This document shows, one piece after another, positions 11,904 to 54,913 of a DNA stretch of 64,000 bases. The position numbers were made by a program, and so were the translations under genes. Position 1 is the first letter of the stretch; each line of letters opens with the position of its first letter. The DNA lies in the IMG/VR virus record IMGVR_UViG_3300035181_000949, positions 1-64,000 of that record. The stretch is one strand, 5' to 3'. The stretch is from a virus. The notes under the pieces are model-generated. The model searched no databases. It saw nothing but the letters and a program-made list of their open reading frames with translations, and had not been told where the DNA came from.

Positions 11904-12188
11904 TTAACCAGATTCCTTGGGCTTTCTAACTCTTCTCGCTTTTATCTTTGGTCTGTTAAGTGGGATGACAGTTAGAAGTTCGCGTGTGTCCGGAACTAAT
12001 CCGTTGTCCATAAGACAGTCAAGGTGCTCTTGAGTAAATTGGAAGGGCTGCTTCAAAATGAAGACACCCATTTTATCGGCGGCGAACTTGGCACAGAAGT
12101 CAATATCAACAGTTCCAAACTGATTAGAGTATGTGTAGAACAGCAAAAGTAAATCCAGCTCCAGCTGTGAAATTTCGCCCATATCCAT
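11904..12188 (-). CDS. unknown small protein with basic tail
   Basis: 94 residues beginning MDMGEISQLELDLLLLFY. It is mostly helical, with Cys residues at about 32 and 58 that do not form a recognisable metal site, and ends in a basic PKIKARRVRKPK tail. It is the first gene after the tmRNA on the same strand and may be cotranscribed with it. No family is recognised. Confidence 0.55.
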   Translation of the reverse strand: MDMGEISQLELDLLLLFYTYSNQFGTVDIDFCAKFAADKMGVFILKQPFQFTQEHLDCLMDNGLVPDTRELLTVIPLNRPKIKARRVRKPKESG

Positions 12189-12244
12189 TATTCTTATCCT
12201 TTGCGAAATGAAGGTGAGGGTTTAATTCTGTTGCTAAGATAAAC

Positions 12245-12590
12245 CCTCAAAAACTCCGGCAAGCCAATTAGGCAGCCATCACAAATTTGTCGTTTGCGTT
12301 TATAGTTTTGCTTCTTTAACGTCGATCGCCTGACGAGCGCTCAAACAAATACTTTTTTCGTGGTCGATCCTGTGTCAAGCCCATTAAAAGAACTCTTGGC
12401 ATATCTGTCTTTGTTATCAGTTTTACCTATGCAAGAGGGATCTGGGATACCAAACCTGTTCAAACATTTCTGTAAGATTTAGAGTTCTTTTGGTGGACCT
12501 GCCGGGCACTGCCCCCGGGTGTCACAATCATTTCCTAATCTAAGTTTACGCTGTTTTTGAAAATGAACAATTTATCCGTCCTCATTTCAA
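12245..12590 (-). ncRNA. ssrA: circularly permuted (two-piece) tmRNA
   Basis: Reading leftward, the acceptor piece comes first. It contains a T-arm (CCGGG, 7-base loop GGCAGTG, CCCGG; 12502-12518), then CAGGTCC (12495-12501) and ACCA ending at 12491. After a 108-base spacer the coding piece starts at 12382 with GGGCTTG, which pairs with CAGGTCC as a 7-bp acceptor stem (two G-U pairs). It continues with GGATCGACC and then AAACGCAAACGAC, the resume-codon context of tmRNAs. The tag is ANDKFVMAA plus stop (12268-12297). The spacer ends pair through 11 perfect bases (AAAAGAACTCT at 12386-12396 and its complement at 12481-12491), bringing both mature ends together. This order is that of permuted ssrA genes. 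In the cell tmRNA with SmpB rescues stalled ribosomes and tags proteins for proteolysis. Outer limits are approximate; pseudoknots were not resolved. Confidence 0.9.
12268..12297 (-). other. tmRNA proteolysis-tag reading frame
   Basis: GCA AAC GAC then AAA TTT GTG ATG GCT GCC TAA. The encoded tag is A-N-D-K-F-V-M-A-A, added after the Ala carried by the tmRNA. The AND start and AA end match bacterial tags; the end is the signal read by ClpXP-type proteases. Nine codons is one shorter than the Escherichia coli tag. Confidence 0.88.
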
Positions 12591-12660
12591 TCCTCTATTT
12601 TCTGCATCTTCTTTATTTAGCAAAAAGTTATTCATTCCACCAATCCACCAATTCTTACCC

Positions 12661-12849
12661 TTATCTTGTGTAGACTACTTCAACTAACGAAGCGCTTGCT
12701 TGTCTCGCGTACTGGACCCATCCAGTGGAGATAGCATCACCCTCAGGGTCGCCTGTTACGCTTGAAGGATTATACGCAACAGTACTTACTTCTGCACCAC
12801 CCTCAACAATAGTCTCAAGTGTTTGTTTCTGATCTTCACTCATATCCAT
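12661..12849 (-). CDS. unknown small acidic protein
   Basis: 62 residues starting MDMSEDQKQTLETIVEGG. AGGAG lies 7 bases before the ATG at 12849; a second ATG at 12843 would give an ATGA overlap with the upstream 55-residue gene. It contains a short segment (TGWVQYARQASASLVEV) that looks like a folded mini-domain. Just upstream of the tmRNA on the same strand; no family recognised. Confidence 0.55.
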   Translation of the reverse strand: MDMSEDQKQTLETIVEGGAEVSTVAYNPSSVTGDPEGDAISTGWVQYARQASASLVEVVYTR

Positions 12850-13037: not shown

Positions 13038-13793
13038 TTATTCATTGATTGGAATAATGAGAGACTTGCAACCCAATCCTAAGTCAATGAAGGCGTGCAG
13101 GTCTTGCTTTATGACCTGATAGTTCAGTCCTTCAAGTCTTTCATAAAGCTCCATACTTAGCCCATCAGGGATAATGACGTGGTCATTATGAATGATTGAA
13201 CTACACGCCATTCCAATCTTGTCCTCATTACTAATCTCAATAGCATCAGGATACCAATCACGTATCTCGTGCCGGGCCTGTTCTGTGAAGGCGGGTGGAT
13301 ACCATAGAAGGCCACGCATCTCCGTGAGTGGGCAAAAGACGTTAGCTAAAATTCCATCACTTGCTAATCCGATCCTCATCTCAAGCGGTCGATATACCTT
13401 TCCAGCGCTAATCAAGATGTCCTCAAATTGGTTATCTCGGCGCAAGCTTCCATCAAATCCAAAGCTGCACCATGCCTGCTGTTCATCAATAATAATAGCC
13501 GTGCTGGAAGCCTTTACGTTCTGCTGGTGGATTGCGTTAAAGCCGCGGTCAGATAACCACGCTGCCAAGCGATCTTCCTTTACTTTATCTATCAGGACAT
13601 CATTACCGAATATGAAAGCTTTTTCACTGAAGGGCAGATCAAAGGCTGTGCCACTATTTGCGGAAAACGGAATGACAATGACCTCTAATCCAATCTGTCC
13701 AAGTGTATTTCTAAGCTCAGACCATTGCTGAATCATCAGCACTCTTCTAAGAGTATCAATACTGCCAGGAATAACCGTCAGGACTTGTTTCAT
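13038..13793 (-). CDS. pentein-fold (amidinotransferase-like) protein lacking catalytic residues
   Basis: 251 residues. The order of motifs follows arginine deiminase/dimethylargininase-type penteins: an early FGNDVLID strand (usual F.(R/A)D), WCSFGFDGSLR (usual W.GYG.RS), NVFCPLTEMRGLLWYPPAF (usual HLDTCFCPL...YPPAF), IEISNEDKIGMACSSII, and a C-terminal GLGCKSLIIPI (usual GG..KCLTL). The key residues are missing: the His-Leu-Asp-Thr before the FCPL strand reads I-L-A-N, the EGGGD loop is absent, and the nucleophile Cys aligns with Ser. I infer a binding or structural protein derived from the enzyme fold. It has a CATAAATG motif close to the start and reads toward the tmRNA region. Confidence 0.7.
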   Translation of the reverse strand: MKQVLTVIPGSIDTLRRVLMIQQWSELRNTLGQIGLEVIVIPFSANSGTAFDLPFSEKAFIFGNDVLIDKVKEDRLAAWLSDRGFNAIHQQNVKASSTAIIIDEQQAWCSFGFDGSLRRDNQFEDILISAGKVYRPLEMRIGLASDGILANVFCPLTEMRGLLWYPPAFTEQARHEIRDWYPDAIEISNEDKIGMACSSIIHNDHVIIPDGLSMELYERLEGLNYQVIKQDLHAFIDLGLGCKSLIIPINE

Positions 13794-46244: not shown

Positions 46245-46820
46245 TTATAAATCTTCATTCCACAGATATTCGAATGTGCCCATATCTATGTGTGCTTCAC
46301 TAATAAATGGAAATTTTTGTCCATCAATTATTAATGTTATATCGGGGTCATTTGCCCCGATATCACTATTTGAAAATTTTGTAATCTTGTTTGTTTTGAA
46401 ATTCAGTATGCTAACACTGAAATTGCTTTTTTCAGCAAGGGATGCAAGAAGCATCCCACCATCCTTTGACAATGAACCTCCTTTATCTGCTTCATTACCG
46501 ATTATTAGTGGGTATTTCAATAGCTTAGACAATCCAAGAATGAATAGACCAGATGCTCGCGTTTTTCTAAATTGTTCAATAACAAAAAGCATTTTTACTG
46601 GAAGATAATGCTTATCATCAATAACTTCCGTTGGGCCTAATGATAAAAAGCCGACTATTTTGGAATCAACTATAAGTGTGTATTTATTTTGTGATCTACC
46701 GATAACAATTCGTGTTGTTAGTCGCAAAATCTCCATGTTATTTTCTTCTAATGATGGTAGTAGATTTTCAAATCCCACATCATTTATAGTATTTGGCCAA
46801 ACTATTTCATCTAATTTCAC
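46245..46820 (-). CDS. GNAT-fold-like protein between nrdB and nrdA
   Basis: 191 residues. GTG 46820 is chosen: it overlaps the nrdA stop in GTGA and yields MKLDEIVWPN, matching the MKL(D/Q)EI start of genes at 30449 and 34031. LFVIEQFRKTRASGLFILGLSKLL resembles a GNAT loop and helix. Sequence similarity to the other two is low beyond these points. Function unknown; it may be an unusual paralogue or a cargo gene inserted in the nrd group. Confidence 0.5.
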   Translation of the reverse strand: MKLDEIVWPNTINDVGFENLLPSLEENNMEILRLTTRIVIGRSQNKYTLIVDSKIVGFLSLGPTEVIDDKHYLPVKMLFVIEQFRKTRASGLFILGLSKLLKYPLIIGNEADKGGSLSKDGGMLLASLAEKSNFSVSILNFKTNKITKFSNSDIGANDPDITLIIDGQKFPFISEAHIDMGTFEYLWNEDL

Positions 46821-47905
46821 AGTATGCAGCTTTCGCAATATTCTTCAACTTCGGGTTCAGCTTGAACAGGAACAAAACTTTCTTGAAGCATCTCCTTTGA
46901 TCCTTGCTTATCTCTCAAATCGTAATACCAAGATTTTATCCCCCATCTCGCTCCTAGCATAAGGTTCTTAGCAATCAATGTAGCAGGAATCTTTCCTTCT
47001 GGGAAATACTTTCCAGAGTAAAATGTATCAGTAGAGATACCTTGATCAACATAGACTTGCAAAACTGCAGCAGTCTTGATGTACTCGATGCAATCCTTTT
47101 GATCCCAAAGCAGCTGGTAATGATTCTTCAGCTTACGATACTCAGGAACAACTTGCGCGAATGCACCAGCTTTGGATTCCTTAATGATGATCAGCTGTTT
47201 AACAAGATTGAAACCATTTGTTGAATTGATAACAACAGAAGAAGATTCAACTGGAGCAATTGCCATGTTTGTAGCATTACGAATGCCATACTGTTTCATC
47301 TTAGCACGAAGACCTTCCCAATCCAAATCTTCAGAAGGTGTGAAGTCAGTTAGTTCATTGACACCTTCAGCACGAAGCTCCCAAGGAAAGATACCTTGAC
47401 CATAACGTGTCTGAGCAGATGCAAGGCAAGGACCTTTCTCTTTAGCAAGATTGACAGAAGCTTCGATCAAGTAGAAGGATTGGTGTTCCATCCAGCGCTT
47501 TACTTCAGCTAGTTGATCTGCTTCACCATACTTCAGCTTACGCTTAGCTTGCCAGTATGCAAGGTTGGTGATGCCGATACCAAGAGGTTCAAATTCCTTG
47601 TTGTGAAGTTCAGAATGCACTGACAGGAAGTCTTGGTACTGAAGAAGGTTGTGAAGAGCTCTGTGAAGAACTACAGCTGGACGCTTCATGTCTTCTGGAT
47701 TGCGGAATGAACCCCAATTAATGGAGCCAAGCGTGCATAGAGCAATGCGGCCCTCCGGATCTTCAATTGTTTGGAATGGACGGGTATGCTGCATGATTTC
47801 TGTGCAGTTATGAACCAATATTCCATCTCCATAAAAAGTGTGAGTGTTTTCAACAGTGATATCAAAAACATCACTTACATCATCTAATTCTTCTATAATT
47901 AACAT
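46817..47905 (-). CDS. nrdA: NrdA C-terminal part with C-terminal split intein
   Basis: 362 residues. The first 33 residues (DVFDITVENTHTFYGDGILVHN) are intein blocks F and G, ending His-Asn before Cys. From residue 34 the chain is NrdA: CTEIMQHTRPF carries the active-site Cys at the position of Escherichia coli Cys462, then LCTLGSINW, AMIAPVESSSV-like NMAIAPVESSSV (radical-site block), and the terminal CESCIL redox pair. Trans-splicing with the half encoded at 48709-50361 would restore a 774-residue NrdA. Its start lies inside the end of the endonuclease gene. Confidence 0.92.
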   Translation of the reverse strand: MLIIEELDDVSDVFDITVENTHTFYGDGILVHNCTEIMQHTRPFQTIEDPEGRIALCTLGSINWGSFRNPEDMKRPAVVLHRALHNLLQYQDFLSVHSELHNKEFEPLGIGITNLAYWQAKRKLKYGEADQLAEVKRWMEHQSFYLIEASVNLAKEKGPCLASAQTRYGQGIFPWELRAEGVNELTDFTPSEDLDWEGLRAKMKQYGIRNATNMAIAPVESSSVVINSTNGFNLVKQLIIIKESKAGAFAQVVPEYRKLKNHYQLLWDQKDCIEYIKTAAVLQVYVDQGISTDTFYSGKYFPEGKIPATLIAKNLMLGARWGIKSWYYDLRDKQGSKEMLQESFVPVQAEPEVEEYCESCIL

Positions 47906-48654
47906 TTTCTGCCTTTAATAATAGTGTCTAATTTTAATTCAGTAGCAAAAGCTAAATAAGATTTGTTAGCTGCAGTATCTGTTACCCAAATTTTACCTAA
48001 ATTCTGTTTGCTTACTTTGCTGCGGTGGGCAGGTGTTGCAGAATATTTAATTTCTGAAATATCATATCCATCACTCTTTAGTTTATCTAGCATTGCAGCT
48101 TTCAATCCCCTGAGGCCCCCACCAAATTTAGAAAATCTCCATTTAACCAGGTGCGTTGGCCACTTTTTCAACTTACACAAATCAAACCATTTTGACTGAA
48201 TCCAATTGCATCCATTATCTTTCCACAGAGCAATTGCTGCAACAAGTAGCTCATCATCTATTACTGTGGCTGCCCTTGGATTATTTCTGCCAGAGTTACT
48301 CTTGCTCAACACTTCTTTTCTTGCAGCAACATTTTCGCCGAACCATGTATTGCCACCACTGCCACCAGGTGTTGAATTATATCCATTAGGAGCTAAAGTA
48401 TCCAGTTCTTTAATCATTTTAATTTCAATTAGTTTAGCTTCATGCTCCAAATGAGTATCAAAAATGATCTTGCATACCCAATCATCTACACCATGTTTTC
48501 TTATTGCCTTATCAAAATATGTCTTTCCACCAGTTGTTGCCCTCAAAACATGTTTCGACCATCTAAAATAAACACCATCTCCAGTGTATCCAATATAAGA
48601 TTTGCCTGAACTTTTACTTGTCCAACAATAAACTCTGTACATTACATCTTTCAT
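47899..48654 (-). CDS. GIY-YIG homing endonuclease between nrdA intein halves
   Basis: 251 residues from ATG 48654. MYRVYCWTSKSSGKSYIGYTGDGVYFRWSKH gives the GIY-YIG nuclease motif (VYC...YIG, catalytic R-W region) followed by a Glu-containing helix. SKSNSGRNNPRA is a NUMOD-type DNA-binding motif, and the C-terminal 120 residues probably bind the target site. GGGG 6 bases before the ATG is its ribosome-binding site and lies in a hairpin with an internal exact late promoter. It overlaps the C-terminal nrdA fragment by 7 bases. Predicted to cut intein-free nrdA and drive spread of the split gene. Confidence 0.88.
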   Translation of the reverse strand: MKDVMYRVYCWTSKSSGKSYIGYTGDGVYFRWSKHVLRATTGGKTYFDKAIRKHGVDDWVCKIIFDTHLEHEAKLIEIKMIKELDTLAPNGYNSTPGGSGGNTWFGENVAARKEVLSKSNSGRNNPRAATVIDDELLVAAIALWKDNGCNWIQSKWFDLCKLKKWPTHLVKWRFSKFGGGLRGLKAAMLDKLKSDGYDISEIKYSATPAHRSKVSKQNLGKIWVTDTAANKSYLAFATELKLDTIIKGRKC

Positions 48655-48655
48655 A

Positions 48656-48707
48656 GTGTGCCCCATAATCTCTGTACTATTATTTATAGAGAAATAACGG
48701 GGCACAC
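48656..48707 (-). promoter_or_regulatory. TATAAATA promoter inside a 9-bp hairpin controlling the endonuclease
   Basis: GTGTGCCCC (48656-48664) pairs with GGGGCACAC (48699-48707). The exact late motif TATAAATA (48681-48688) is in the loop, and the 3' arm contains the GGGG ribosome-binding site. This copies the known logic of phage T4 I-TevI and similar nuclease genes, where early read-through RNA is not translated but late RNA is. Confidence 0.8.
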
Positions 48708-48708
48708 A

Positions 48709-50361
48709 TTAAATCAGGTCTAGTAAATCGTCTGACTTTAAAGAACCAGCTTCTACCCAGCCTCGATTTTTAGTCCATACTTTATGATTTGCTGTAACTT
48801 TAATCGATTTTCCAGTAACAGAGTCAGTAATTTTCAGTAGTTTGCGATTGATATCAGTTTTAGCAGCAGCTGTAACTGACTCGTACGATATTTCACCAGT
48901 AGCTACATTTTTACTAAGTGCCTTTATTTTTTTATTCATGCTGAATAGGCTGGTCAACTCTAATATAGAAATATCCATTTTAGTACCGTCAACCGTGCAA
49001 TTAATAATAGTGTCTGGCGATACACAGAGATTTGTTTGGTAGATTGGGTGAACAGATGGATCAAGAGGACCTTGATTAGCAACGTTGTCGATGTTCAGAA
49101 TGTAGTAACGACCAGTGTCACCACGTTCTTTGATCAACCAATCCTTAATGACGACTTCTGCTGGCTCTACCTTCTTGCGAAGATCAGTGCGCGCTTCGTA
49201 CATCTCGTAGAGCTCTTCAAAGCGAACTGAGTCAGCATAGAAGGCTTCGTAAAGATCAGGCACTTCATTTGGATCGAAGAAGGTGATTACGCCCTGCTGC
49301 TTGAAGCGCTTCCAGAAGAACTTGTTCATGACTACGCAGTAGTCCATGTGACGAACGCGTGTCTCGTCAGTACCTTGGTTATTCTTTAGGACGATAAGAT
49401 CGTCAAATTGATAATGCCAAATTGGGAAGTTGATGGTGGCAGACGCATTCCGTATTCCACCTTGAGAGCACGAACGAAGGTCTCCGAACCATTTCTTGAG
49501 GAATGGAATGTATCCAGTGTGCTTAACTTCTCCTCCTCTAATGGGCGCACCTAATGGTCTAAGGCGGCCAACATCGAGGCCGATTCCCGCACGTTTAGCA
49601 GCATAGTCGGCCATGACTTGCCCACTTGCAAAGATTGATTTGAGGGTGTCGTCAGACTTGATAAGCACACATGAACTGAATTGCTTAGTTTTTGTTCCAA
49701 GCCCGGCAAGGACTGGTGTAGCAAGAGTGAATAGTCCGTCTGAACTAGAGTTGTAGAAGTCCTTAACCCAGCGCATTCTGTCCTTGGTCTCTGCATGGAA
49801 GGCAGTAGCTGCTGCGACGATGTAGCGGACTTGTGGAGTCTCAACAACCGAGTTGCTCTTTGAGCGATCTTGAACCAGGTATTTTTCAATAAGCTGTTCA
49901 ACAGCTGCGATTGGTAGTATTTCATCTTTGTCATGGTCAATGAATTTCTCCATTTGGTTCCATTCATCTTCAGAGTACCACGTGAGCAGCTCTGGGGTGT
50001 AGAGACCCAACTCTACATTCTTCTTTACGATACTCAAAAGGGATGGTGGGGCGTAATCTCCATAAACATCTTTACGAAGCATTGATACGCGCTGTCTTCC
50101 AGCAGCATATTGATAGTTGATATTACCGGTATCTGGGTGTTCTTCTTCGTCAATTAAATCGATCATTGCTCGAAGAGCCATGCGATCTAATTCTCTTGTC
50201 TCCATCCCATCATAGAAGTGGGCTTGAGCCGCAATTTCAATCATGGAGGGAGATACACCATCGAGTCCCTCACATACTTTTTGGATTTGAGCTTGCCACT
50301 TTTCGATGTTGAGTGGAACTTTTTTGCCGCTGCGTTTAACGACACCAATCTCATTTGACAT
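48709..50361 (-). CDS. nrdA: NrdA N-terminal part with N-terminal split intein
   Basis: 550 residues. Residues 1-445 are NrdA: an ATP-cone-like start (VVKRSGKKVPLNIEKW), FSSCVLI with the first redox Cys, GGIRNASATI, and end at HPIYQTNL, just before the catalytic Cys. Residues 446-550 (CVSPDTIINCTVDG... VTANHKVWT... GWVEAGSL) are intein blocks A and B, with the TxxH motif. The ORF stops at LDLI, so the intein is naturally split here. The other half is 0.8 kb downstream, beyond the endonuclease. Confidence 0.93.
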   Translation of the reverse strand: MSNEIGVVKRSGKKVPLNIEKWQAQIQKVCEGLDGVSPSMIEIAAQAHFYDGMETRELDRMALRAMIDLIDEEEHPDTGNINYQYAAGRQRVSMLRKDVYGDYAPPSLLSIVKKNVELGLYTPELLTWYSEDEWNQMEKFIDHDKDEILPIAAVEQLIEKYLVQDRSKSNSVVETPQVRYIVAAATAFHAETKDRMRWVKDFYNSSSDGLFTLATPVLAGLGTKTKQFSSCVLIKSDDTLKSIFASGQVMADYAAKRAGIGLDVGRLRPLGAPIRGGEVKHTGYIPFLKKWFGDLRSCSQGGIRNASATINFPIWHYQFDDLIVLKNNQGTDETRVRHMDYCVVMNKFFWKRFKQQGVITFFDPNEVPDLYEAFYADSVRFEELYEMYEARTDLRKKVEPAEVVIKDWLIKERGDTGRYYILNIDNVANQGPLDPSVHPIYQTNLCVSPDTIINCTVDGTKMDISILELTSLFSMNKKIKALSKNVATGEISYESVTAAAKTDINRKLLKITDSVTGKSIKVTANHKVWTKNRGWVEAGSLKSDDLLDLI

Positions 50362-52133: not shown

Positions 52134-52991
52134 TTAACCTTTTACTTTCAAAGTTTGTTTCTTGTTTATTGGGTATCCAGCTTCTTTGTAGTGCTTCACT
52201 CGTTCCTTAAAGTGCCTCACTGCCCATTTTAGTTTAGAGTGAACATCGACAACCATAACAGAATCTTTGTCATGTCCAATACGAAGACCGCGCCCTACTG
52301 ATTGAATAGCTTTGATGAAGGATTTACCTGCATCTACAAACATCATACAGAAAATACGGTCAATCGAGAGGCCTGTTGAAGCAATACCTGCTGAGGCTAT
52401 TACTATTATATCATCATTCTCTTCAAACATATCATAATGTTCGCGGCGCAAGTCTTTTGGTGATTCGCCATAAAGAAAGACAGCACCCTTAATCAGCTTA
52501 GCTAACTTTTCACCAAATGGAATAGAGTTAACCAGGACAAGAGTATTGCCATGCGCTGCACATTGAGAGATGATCAAATCAGCAATGATCTCCATTCGAT
52601 TAGTGCTCTTAGCTAAGAAGGATTTCTCAGCAGCATAGTCAGGAAAGTCTTCATCGATATAACTCTCATTCAATTCAACAGGCTGAATCTGAACCTTAGC
52701 AAGATAACCATGGTCAATTAACCACGCAGCAGGAATCTCTTTGAGGATAGGCCCAATTGAAGTAATAAGAGAAAGCTTTTCAGACTCTGGTTTAGGGAAT
52801 GTTCCTGTTACGCCAAAGCGGAATGCAATGTGCTTACCATTATCATTGACAAGTTTCTGCGCAACAGTAGCTTTGATACCGTGACAATTCGAAACAACAG
52901 CACCATTAACAATATAGTTGTGGTGTTTATCAACAGTTAAATCATAAACTTTTTCTGGCTTATCTATTTCTTCTTTTTTCAACAGATGCAT
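52134..52991 (-). CDS. uvsW: UvsW helicase C-terminal part with C-terminal split intein
   Basis: 285 residues. Residues 1-35 (KVYDLTVDKHHNYIVNGAVVSN) are intein blocks F and G ending Ser-Asn before Cys. From residue 36, CHGIKATVAQKL completes the helicase DECH box; RFGVTGTFPK is motif III-like, SAGIASTGLSIDRI motif V, and QSVGRGLRIGHDKD motif VI. Trans-splicing with the half at 53855-54913 would give a 487-residue UvsW (T4: 503). UvsW unwinds and remodels recombination and replication intermediates. Start (AGAGG then ATG) lies inside the end of the nuclease gene. Confidence 0.92.
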   Translation of the reverse strand: MHLLKKEEIDKPEKVYDLTVDKHHNYIVNGAVVSNCHGIKATVAQKLVNDNGKHIAFRFGVTGTFPKPESEKLSLITSIGPILKEIPAAWLIDHGYLAKVQIQPVELNESYIDEDFPDYAAEKSFLAKSTNRMEIIADLIISQCAAHGNTLVLVNSIPFGEKLAKLIKGAVFLYGESPKDLRREHYDMFEENDDIIVIASAGIASTGLSIDRIFCMMFVDAGKSFIKAIQSVGRGLRIGHDKDSVMVVDVHSKLKWAVRHFKERVKHYKEAGYPINKKQTLKVKG

Positions 52992-53877
52992 ATAATCCTC
53001 TTAATAGTTTTTCAGTATTTTCATCAAATTCACTAAAATTAACAGTGTGTTTTGGTATTAGTTCTGTTAAAGAAAATTCAGTTAATATAACAAATTCAAA
53101 TCCATTGCTAACACACCAGCGTGCTACTATATCAAGAATGGGTTGTTTTAATTTTACGTACTTCTCAGGTTTTATTTCATAAATTACATTACCAACTTTA
53201 AAATCGGTAATGTAAACGTGATGCTTATCAGTAAAATACGGTATTCTAATCTTTTCGTATTCTGCTTGTGGAAATGCTTGATAAAAAAGAGCCTCCCAGC
53301 TACTTCTGAAAAGTTTATCTCTAAATTTAAGTTGCTTTCTTGTTCTAGAATTAAACGTATTAGGGGTCCATTTACCTGATTCAATATTTTGCTTTGCTTT
53401 TAATGATAACTTTTCACGCGTTAAAGCTGATACTGGTCTACCATACATTGGGTTTTTTGCTCCCATTTTAGCGATAGAGATGTTTTTGCATCGAACATCA
53501 GTATTTTTAGTTAATCCTTTGTTCCATGCCTTAACTAATCCAACTGTCCCTCTATTCCAATGCGTACCATTTTTATTACAAACATAATTTTTCGGATCTA
53601 ACATGGCAGCCCTACCACCTTTAGAAGCAGCAATCTGCCTTCGTTGTTTGTTTAATTTTTCAAATTCTTGTGGAGCTGCTACAAAAGTCCTAGCTTCTTC
53701 AAGATGACCTTGCATTAATAGTCTATAAAATTTACCAAACTCTTTTTTATTAAGCTTGCGACCACATGAAAATACAGCTGAATCAAAAGGCAATCTGACT
53801 GATCCGGTTCTAGGTAAAAACTTAATATCTATTAAAAATTCATCTCCTAGTAAATCATTTATGATTTTCTTCTTCAT
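52960..53877 (-). CDS. PD-(D/E)XK homing endonuclease between uvsW intein halves
   Basis: 305 residues. LFRSSWEALFYQAF (Glu), HVYITDFKVGNVIYEIKPEKY (Asp, then E-x-K) gives a PD-(D/E)XK nuclease core as in several phage homing nucleases; KMGAKNPMYGRPVSALTREKLS is a NUMOD3-like DNA-binding segment, preceded by two related basic stretches. It overlaps uvsW-N by 23 bases and uvsW-C by 32 bases. It should cut uvsW copies lacking the intein. A different family from the one in nrdA, so the two fractures are independent events. Confidence 0.85.
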   Translation of the reverse strand: MKKKIINDLLGDEFLIDIKFLPRTGSVRLPFDSAVFSCGRKLNKKEFGKFYRLLMQGHLEEARTFVAAPQEFEKLNKQRRQIAASKGGRAAMLDPKNYVCNKNGTHWNRGTVGLVKAWNKGLTKNTDVRCKNISIAKMGAKNPMYGRPVSALTREKLSLKAKQNIESGKWTPNTFNSRTRKQLKFRDKLFRSSWEALFYQAFPQAEYEKIRIPYFTDKHHVYITDFKVGNVIYEIKPEKYVKLKQPILDIVARWCVSNGFEFVILTEFSLTELIPKHTVNFSEFDENTEKLLRGLYASVEKRRNR

Positions 53878-54913
53878 TCACTTTATCTCCATGAGCTTTC
53901 ATTTTATTTAAGGAGAATTCACATATATCATCACGCTCAGTTAAATCTTTTGCCATAACCTTTCTACCATCTTTTAGATAGAAAATATGATTTTCGGTAA
54001 CATCTAAATAACGTCCATTATCAAACGTTAGCCGAAGCATTTTTACCTTAGATTTTGGTAAATTAATGTGAGTTTTTAACACTTTACAAGGCTCGAAATT
54101 TCCGTTTGCGTCCATTGATAAAACATAATCACCGACCCGAACGTCTTTTATTTTCTTTTCCGTCATGTCAGACATCAATACAGGAGTCTCACCACAAAAA
54201 CACTCATCCCAAATCAGACATTGAAAGTCATGCATGATTGTAGGATTATACTGTACTGCCTGCCACGTTGCAACGATGTGCATGTGGTCAAGGTCCTTCT
54301 CTGTACCAGAATAGGTGCCTACATCTAGACCTAGGAGTTCATACCACTCAGCTGTTTGGTCTACAAGATCACCGGATGGAACAATCGTGATTACTTTATA
54401 GCCGGCATTGGCATAGTAGTAGGAGAGAGCACCTGTGATGGAGGTTTTGCCTGCACCAGTTCCTGCGATAATGAAACCACTTCCATTCTCTACAGCAATC
54501 TGAACACACTGTAATTGGTATGGGCGGAGATTGAATACCTTTCCGCCAACGACAACATCATCGCCCATTATGTTAGTCCCAGAAGCAGTGAGAGCAATGC
54601 CCGCAGGGTCAATAGTCAAAAGCTTACCGCCAACTACAGGAGGTTCAAAGTACTTTCGATTATCTATCAGCTCAATGTCATATCCCCACTTCTCTAAGTA
54701 AGGGATAACCTGATCTAATAGACGGACATAGGTCTTACCTGTTGGAGAATAAAATTGGATATATCCGTTCCATCTCCCAAGCTTGAAGGCAGGCATAAAA
54801 AAATAACCTTCTGGGTGAACAGAAAATGCTTTTACTAATGTCTCTACATGCCCAGGCATTATACCAGATATCTGGCACCATACTTCATCGGTTATTCGCA
54901 GAATACATTTCAT
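53855..54913 (-). CDS. uvsW: UvsW helicase N-terminal part with N-terminal split intein
   Basis: 352 residues. Residues 1-237: UvsW N-domain (MKCILRITDEVWCQI..., FKLGRWNGYIQFY), LRPYQLQCV (Q motif), Walker A AGTGAGKTS, motif Ib-like VPSGDLVDQT, and LIWDE at the end. Residues 238-352: split intein start CFCGETPVLMSDM..., with VTENHIFYL (block B T..H). The break is after D-E of the DExH box; the next extein residues, C-H, come from the other half. So an active helicase requires splicing. Confidence 0.93.
   Translation of the reverse strand: MKCILRITDEVWCQISGIMPGHVETLVKAFSVHPEGYFFMPAFKLGRWNGYIQFYSPTGKTYVRLLDQVIPYLEKWGYDIELIDNRKYFEPPVVGGKLLTIDPAGIALTASGTNIMGDDVVVGGKVFNLRPYQLQCVQIAVENGSGFIIAGTGAGKTSITGALSYYYANAGYKVITIVPSGDLVDQTAEWYELLGLDVGTYSGTEKDLDHMHIVATWQAVQYNPTIMHDFQCLIWDECFCGETPVLMSDMTEKKIKDVRVGDYVLSMDANGNFEPCKVLKTHINLPKSKVKMLRLTFDNGRYLDVTENHIFYLKDGRKVMAKDLTERDDICEFSLNKMKAHGDKVNEEENHK

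Follow-up and report, generated by a model that had tools for sequence, protein, structure and literature searches.

The minus strand of the window, a 64,000-nucleotide stretch that is part of the 86,692-base IMG/VR virus record IMGVR_UViG_3300035181_000949, contains a complete circularly permuted tmRNA gene between positions 12177 and 12601, coordinates that mark how far the ARAGORN and alpha_tmRNA matches extend rather than transcript ends. The best explanation, to which we give a probability of roughly 0.8, is that this gene provides its phage with a working two-piece tmRNA, a function predicted from the sequence. Two Rfam 15 covariance models match above their cut-offs, RF04321 (tmRNA_permuted; 100.5 bits against a cut-off of 47, all 213 model positions, E = 2.2e-18 across the 64-kb window) and RF01849 (alpha_tmRNA; 89.8 bits against 50, E = 4.9e-23), and ARAGORN calls a permuted tmRNA with the tag ANDKFVMAA, the sole tRNA or tmRNA gene that it calls within the window. 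Standard tmRNAs can also pass the RF04321 cut-off, as exemplified by locus L364 (51.4 bits, yet called one-piece), and the permutation of the window gene therefore rests on the order of the pieces read in the sequence, with the acceptor piece ahead of the coding piece. The original prediction of a phage-encoded, circularly permuted tmRNA is upheld by both models, by the ARAGORN call and by this order. A permissive Rfam scan of positions 12100-12700, to E = 10, found no family except tmRNA, and promoter- and terminator-like sites around the gene are not above the level of shuffled sequences.

The acceptor piece, the 3'-half of the tRNA-like domain, lies at 12491-12552 (minus strand, as are all parts of the gene), with the RF04321 match starting at 12552 and the piece ending at the CCA. 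It contains a T-arm (CCGGG-GGCAGTG-CCCGG, 12502-12518) with a loop type common in alphaproteobacterial genes, the 3'-strand of the acceptor stem (CAGGTCC, 12495-12501), which holds U70 of the G3-U70 pair, and the discriminator A with the encoded CCA (12491-12494). The coding piece begins with the 5'-strand of the acceptor stem, GGGCTTG (12376-12382), which holds G3. All seven of the acceptor pairs that had been proposed between CAGGTCC (12501-12495) and GGGCTTG (12382-12376) form, two of them G-U, with G3-U70 kept. The 108-base spacer between the two mature pieces (12383-12490) and its perfect 11-bp closing stem were both located as described, the left arm, AAAAGAACTCT, starting with A76 (12481-12491) and pairing with the right arm, AGAGTTCTTTT (12386-12396). 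Within the coding piece, the resume context GCAAACGAC and the tag frame GCA AAC GAC AAA TTT GTG ATG GCT GCC TAA (12268-12297, stop included), translated as ANDKFVMAA and followed in frame by the stop, are intact in both the ARAGORN call and the Rfam match, as first read. A 9-bp 3'-terminal stem, GAGGGTTTA...TAAACCCTC around GCAACAGAA (12216-12248), aligns to the 3'-end of alpha_tmRNA.

A single locus thus holds the acceptor piece, spacer and coding piece in permuted order, and the two halves can pair into a tRNA-like domain. G3-U70, the discriminator A and an encoded CCA are features used by alanyl-tRNA synthetase and, given the G3-U70 pair, the RNA is probably charged with alanine. No SmpB was found in seven phage records and no match to one Pfam RNase III model in four, several of the records being possible fragments, and both proteins would for this reason have to come from the host; the RNA presumably uses host SmpB. 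The lack of SmpB in the records searched also fits a different role, in which the RNA would bind host SmpB or enter ribosomes and thereby obstruct or compete with trans-translation by the host. Such a role has been suggested for the tag-less tmRNA-like RNA of mycobacteriophage DS6A, and a similar molecule inhibits tmRNA (PMC4131195, PMC11915505). Such a decoy is quite improbable here, as the window gene retains an intact tag frame, resume context, stop and CCA, and tags are kept in its covariance-model relatives and in named phages. The full tag frame argues for real tagging by a working tmRNA.

The tag itself, with nine residues and an MAA end, is ordinary. Its nine codons had been singled out in the original prediction, but the length is not remarkable: in a class-wide sample of alphaproteobacterial genes (n = 60), one tag has 9 residues and 21 have 10, and three end in MAA. 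The suggestion that the tag reroutes proteolysis is unsupported, since the hydrophobic-Ala-Ala end is kept and MAA ends are known in Rhodobacterales and Hyphomonas genomes. No phage adaptor for proteolysis of the SspB type was found in seven phage records. A pattern for tags starting with ANDDNY matched 164 of 369 gammaproteobacterial genomes and did not single out Xanthomonas. Naming a host from the tag was tried and ruled out, as exact ANDKFVMAA is absent from genome_contigs (84,980 species, one genome each, contigs of at least 3 kb) and occurs in a single viral contig, that of the same phage. A narrow pattern, AND(K/N)...MAA, found 60 stretches in viral contigs, of which ARAGORN called 41 permuted and 4 standard, with 15 left without a call; statistics on tag ends were not used for this or the other viral tag-pattern search, because the patterns demanded those ends. 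Two tags depart from the usual form. That of Xanthomonas phage X1, ANDADYSVARYA, has no Ala-Ala end (OQ427096.1:121009-121337), and at L084:1501-1807 ARAGORN reports a tag of 27 residues that contains an inner ANDEMLQAA, either an unusually long tag or a sign of a second, truer resume site.

Protein matches in the window, to baseplate wedge, tail-fibre, ribonucleotide reductase, DNA ligase, helicase, gp32-like and RecA-family proteins, point to a large T4-like myovirus as the probable carrier. A viral contig of 239,441 bases has a tmRNA identical letter for letter, is also identical over the 5000 bases upstream, and is evidently the same phage. Contigs of 368,054 bases (87% by NrdB) and 343,229 bases (78%, designated G004) are among its relatives, and the nearest named phages by this protein are Xanthomonas phage X1 (56.7%) and Stenotrophomonas phages (~51%), the latter assigned to Menderavirus in the records consulted. 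The baseplate-like protein points to phage DSL-LC04 and cyanophages and, as these two proteins disagree, we claim no host. DNA similarity of the tmRNA to named phages gave no match.

Two-piece tmRNAs in phages are, as such, already published. According to PMC9004378, 402 of 18,146 phage genomes have a tmRNA, and ARAGORN reads 53 of the 133 distinct structures as two-piece; the novelty of the find had therefore been overrated. In the open-licence literature we found no description of the phage hairpin considered below or of the tmRNAs of Menderavirus and X1, and PMC9004378 may include some of these phages in its supplementary tables. Among NrdB-related viral records, 8 of 40 have an RF04321 match above cut-off, not counting the record of the same phage; 40 of 80 NrdB loci were scanned, mostly the longer stretches, together with that record. 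One further locus, L092, scores 21 bits for RF04321 inside a tRNA cluster, and the G004 record (343 kb, perhaps incomplete) has no RF04321 match. Twelve of 14 additional records are above cut-off, namely 11 named phages (all eight Menderavirus records searched, X1, Melnitz and HTVC008M) and the IMG/VR copy of phage IME-SM1, and DSL-LC04 has no RF04321 match above cut-off. In the records of X1, IME-SM1 and Moby, no tmRNA is annotated where the permuted gene matches and, in Moby, a hypothetical gene is annotated within the match; the Moby and Mendera announcements each mention tmRNA a single time, when citing the ARAGORN paper by its title. Annotation of cultured phages can, evidently, miss permuted tmRNAs.

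The tmRNAs of Xanthomonas and Stenotrophomonas are one-piece. This agrees with the three permuted bacterial groups named in PMC11915505, and phages of hosts beyond the known permuted groups would make it possible to ask directly whether a two-piece tmRNA can function alongside a one-piece host system. One of the viral tag-pattern searches gave at least 120 stretches, of which the first 80 were used and the other 40 (L287-L326) served as a held-out set, although one of the latter, L308, shares a contig with L085 of the first set. ARAGORN runs on 148 viral loci gave 86 permuted and 14 standard calls, with 50 loci without a call; in the held-out set 25 of the 40 loci were called permuted, 24 of them distinct. 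The 66 distinct viral permuted genes have a median spacer of 80.5 bases, and acceptor position 4 is C in 17. A script with no preference for G3-U70 recovered this pair in 63 of 64 distinct viral permuted genes and in all 24 held-out genes.

The compared phage permuted precursors nearly always carry a long hairpin in the register of the acceptor stem, and most of the sampled alphaproteobacterial genes are without it. In the window gene this hairpin continues in register for 11 bp from A76, which places it in the proposed phage-type group by this feature, and for locus L088, the gene of which is identical, none of 200 shuffled spacers gave an equally long helix at this location. Where the spacer has at least 12 bases, the closing helix is at least 7 bp long in 61 of 64 viral genes and 7 of 52 alphaproteobacterial genes. 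With a strict scan, demanding seven of eight in-register pairs, the hairpin is present in 71 of 73 assessable viral genes, 6/6 from named phages, 7/32 from Alphaproteobacteria and 4/7 from Betaproteobacteria, and also in 10 of 12 assessable genes in a bacterial set selected for MAA ends that includes Hyphomonas; the long hairpin is therefore not confined to phages. The strict scan required G3-U70 and seven acceptor pairs. The loci that it missed number 51 in the viral set, 18 in the MAA-selected bacterial set, 14 among Alphaproteobacteria, 3 among the long-picked loci and 2 among Betaproteobacteria, in addition to L492 and HTVC008M. The scripts used for spacer length and helix favoured G3-U70 among equal candidates. 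The preference-free script found the hairpin in 57 of 59 genes in the first viral set and 8 of 38 in the alphaproteobacterial set. Held-out viral genes have it in 19 of 21 assessable cases, with the leader UGAU in 19 of 24, and it is present in phages of both main T-loop types (30/31 and 30/30).

The pairs themselves vary in sequence. Between 79:-7 and 84:-12 every pair forms in at least 62 of the 63 viral genes, each by several pair types, and a C74-A(-2) mismatch is typical (59/64 viral genes). Over pairs 77-86 in 74 distinct arms, 94.7% of the cells are paired, against a mean of 63.6% and a maximum of 67.4% in 1000 shuffles of the partners; kinship among sequences can beat such shuffles without any structure, and registers slid over the same pairs, a further control, are only 36-57% paired. 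The arms of 21 alphaproteobacterial genes are 57% paired, with a shuffled mean of 43% and maximum of 52%. The structure lines of the Rfam models leave the hairpin stretch unpaired. A UGAU leader before GGG, with the single C74-A(-2) mismatch, is found in 62 of 79 viral genes and so is typical but not defining; the window gene has UAAU instead, with two mismatches and with A at -3, where the phage consensus is G. At L085:1501-1690 and at L097 the spacers have only 5 and 3 bases, and the long hairpin is therefore not required in every phage.

The alphaproteobacterial genes used here were drawn from the best 150 of 263 matches above cut-off (the top 30, 20 among the following 39, and 12 at the bottom of the list), and so represent the higher-scoring matches, in which length does not rise with rank; two of these 62 gave no call, and eight loci picked for long matches were set aside (5 measurable, 2 with a helix of at least 7 bp). 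This class-wide sample took the place of a first comparison set, of bacteria with MAA-ending tags, that was biased to Rhodobacterales. The 150 listed matches have a median length of 218 bases, with four of at least 260. Like the window gene, the genes matching RF01849 have the acceptor piece first, the same type of T-loop and the resume context, but in the sample of 60 the median spacer is 29 bases, not 108, and acceptor position 4 is G in all 60, where the window gene has C. Betaproteobacterial genes (RF01850) are also permuted, and some are closed by the in-register hairpin, but they differ from the window gene in their canonical T-loop and shorter spacers (median 27) and from the phage type in their leaders next to GGG: one of 14 has UGAU, and most of the rest have leaders such as AGGU or CUGN.

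The review PMC3985003 gives the opening and maturation of the permuted precursor only as probable, and a common precursor hairpin provides a concrete, testable idea of how these steps might occur. A single precursor transcript would be made, in which stacking of the spacer hairpin onto the acceptor helix would conceal the CCA end. As the encoded CCA of phage precursors is buried in this extended hairpin, a first cut by a host endonuclease in the duplex or loop seems likely, either by RNase III acting on the ~19-bp duplex or, within the loop, by an enzyme of the RNase E type. RNase P could then generate the GGGC 5'-end, and 3'-trimming or tRNase Z could release the CCA. Once alanylated, the paired pieces would associate with SmpB and EF-Tu of the host and rescue ribosomes stalled on broken messages during infection, with the peptides tagged for host proteases such as ClpXP.

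Alternatively, the hairpin might be regulatory, for example a riboswitch, or mere filler, with the phage genes arising by repeated capture from hosts. There are observations that fit this: a glutamine riboswitch is predicted alongside the Melnitz tmRNA (PMC9004378), the hairpin occurs in some bacteria in each of the sets above, the alphaproteobacterial arms show some excess of pairing over the shuffled mean, a few phage genes have almost no spacer, and a tree that holds phages with the alphaproteobacterial T-loop together with Alphaproteobacteria is rejected only weakly (p-AU 0.032, a cost of 118.8 log units). We regard this alternative as rather unlikely, however, because the helix keeps the register of the acceptor stem whichever of the two main T-loop types the phages have, and the Rfam scan of 12100-12700 gave no sign of a riboswitch in the window spacer or of any non-tmRNA family. 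A role in processing is the reading that we prefer for the hairpin.

In a careful tree of 157 rows, with the spacer excluded, one branch (support 100/98) separates all 42 alphaproteobacterial genes from all 72 phage genes. The window gene falls within all-phage sets of 5, 6 and 15 rows, and its nearest rows by path are phage genes. Its end branch, 0.82, is the longest named in this tree, its best identity, 59%, is to an alphaproteobacterial gene, and its place is unsure because a branch so long could reflect fast change or decay. The tRNA-like domain of the window gene nevertheless appears to group with those of other phage permuted tmRNAs, not with the sampled alphaproteobacterial genes. The long end branch would also fit a non-functional remnant of a host ssrA carried off by a phage, for example by imprecise excision of a prophage, and PMC9004378 suggests that the Melnitz gene was exchanged with a temperate phage. 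With every pairing part intact, hairpin arms that covary across phages, and phage genes as the nearest rows by path, such a remnant is very improbable, and a functional two-piece tmRNA is the better account of the window gene.

The careful tree speaks against descent from within the alphaproteobacterial genes, though weakly given 189 columns, pruned rows and the long branch. Phages do not form one clade in the careful tree (5 changes), but a single phage clade is not rejected (p-AU 0.293), and in the other pruned tree neither one phage clade (0.657) nor one clade of all permuted genes (0.921) is rejected; the T-loop types are intermixed among phages, with 5 changes. These two pruned trees drop 16 and 19 named loci, mostly long branches, together with half of the rows for Alphaproteobacteria and two thirds of those for standard bacterial genes, and cyanobacterial permuted genes are not among the rows of the trees. 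Two fuller trees require 2 or 5 changes for Alphaproteobacteria and 3 or 7 for phages, and the clean split therefore depends partly on pruning; in the one with 5 alphaproteobacterial changes, three standard viral rows (L297, L298, L311) stand under a bacterial label.

PMC9004378 reads phage tmRNAs as sharing the lineages of their hosts, with Melnitz excepted (legend to Figure 5). Our data raise the tentative idea that phage permuted tmRNAs are distinct, as one lineage or several, from those of Alphaproteobacteria, Betaproteobacteria and Cyanobacteria. They would be passed among phages whatever the form of the host tmRNA, phages of Xanthomonas and Stenotrophomonas included, would have their own hairpin matured by widely shared nucleases, and might be the source of the betaproteobacterial two-piece genes. 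The short alignment (189 columns) keeps this below an even chance. Were phage permuted tmRNAs truly separate from those of hosts, phages would be a candidate source of the scattered bacterial two-piece genes. A permuted tmRNA in a genome of the Methylophilus order (L363) has the phage-type leader UGAU, and its nearest rows in the tree are phage genes; it is possibly a prophage gene or a host gene acquired from a phage.

Among named phages, Melnitz (MZ577097) and HTVC008M have, like the window phage, permuted tmRNAs above the RF04321 cut-off (113.4 and 90.6 bits, respectively), and Melnitz shares the alpha-type T-loop and has a 142-base spacer closed in register. Their tags, ANDNYVPVDYALAA in Melnitz and ANFNEYALAA in HTVC008M, differ from that of the window gene, and the glutamine riboswitch reported for Melnitz has no sign of a counterpart in the window. 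X1 and Menderavirus, the nearest named relatives by NrdB, share with the window phage a permuted gene whose spacer hairpin is of the same kind, but with the canonical T-loop TTCGATT and the tags ANDADYSVARYA and ANDDSYTVRIAA, respectively. The tmRNAs of Bacillus phage G and the Bxz1 group of mycobacteriophages are one-piece, whereas the window gene is permuted. These phages and huge phages, in which tmRNAs have also been reported, share with the window phage the possession of a ribosome-rescue RNA (PMC4131195, PMC7162821).

In four X1 and Menderavirus records the tmRNA gene is 0.6 to 2.7 kb upstream of nrdA, whereas in the window the two are more than 30 kb apart. The large subunit of ribonucleotide reductase is encoded in the window in two halves (46817-50361, minus strand). 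The N-terminal half ends in an intein N-terminal region (48709-50361, minus), a gene for a GIY-YIG endonuclease follows (47899-48705, minus), and an intein C-terminal region is then fused to the C-terminal half of the reductase (46817-47905, minus), an arrangement suggestive of a split intein whose halves flank a homing endonuclease gene. A DNA helicase appears to be split likewise (52134-54913, minus) and is the second fractured gene in this phage, with a helicase part that carries an intein N-terminal region (53855-54913, minus), a frame of 305 residues with no NCBIfam match at 0.01 (52960-53877, minus), and an intein C-terminal region that matches helicases weakly (52134-52991, minus). Upstream of the tmRNA gene, at 13038-13793 (minus), is a frame that resembles arginine dihydrolase/dimethylargininase, with E ~5e-12 and a score far under the cut-offs of the families.
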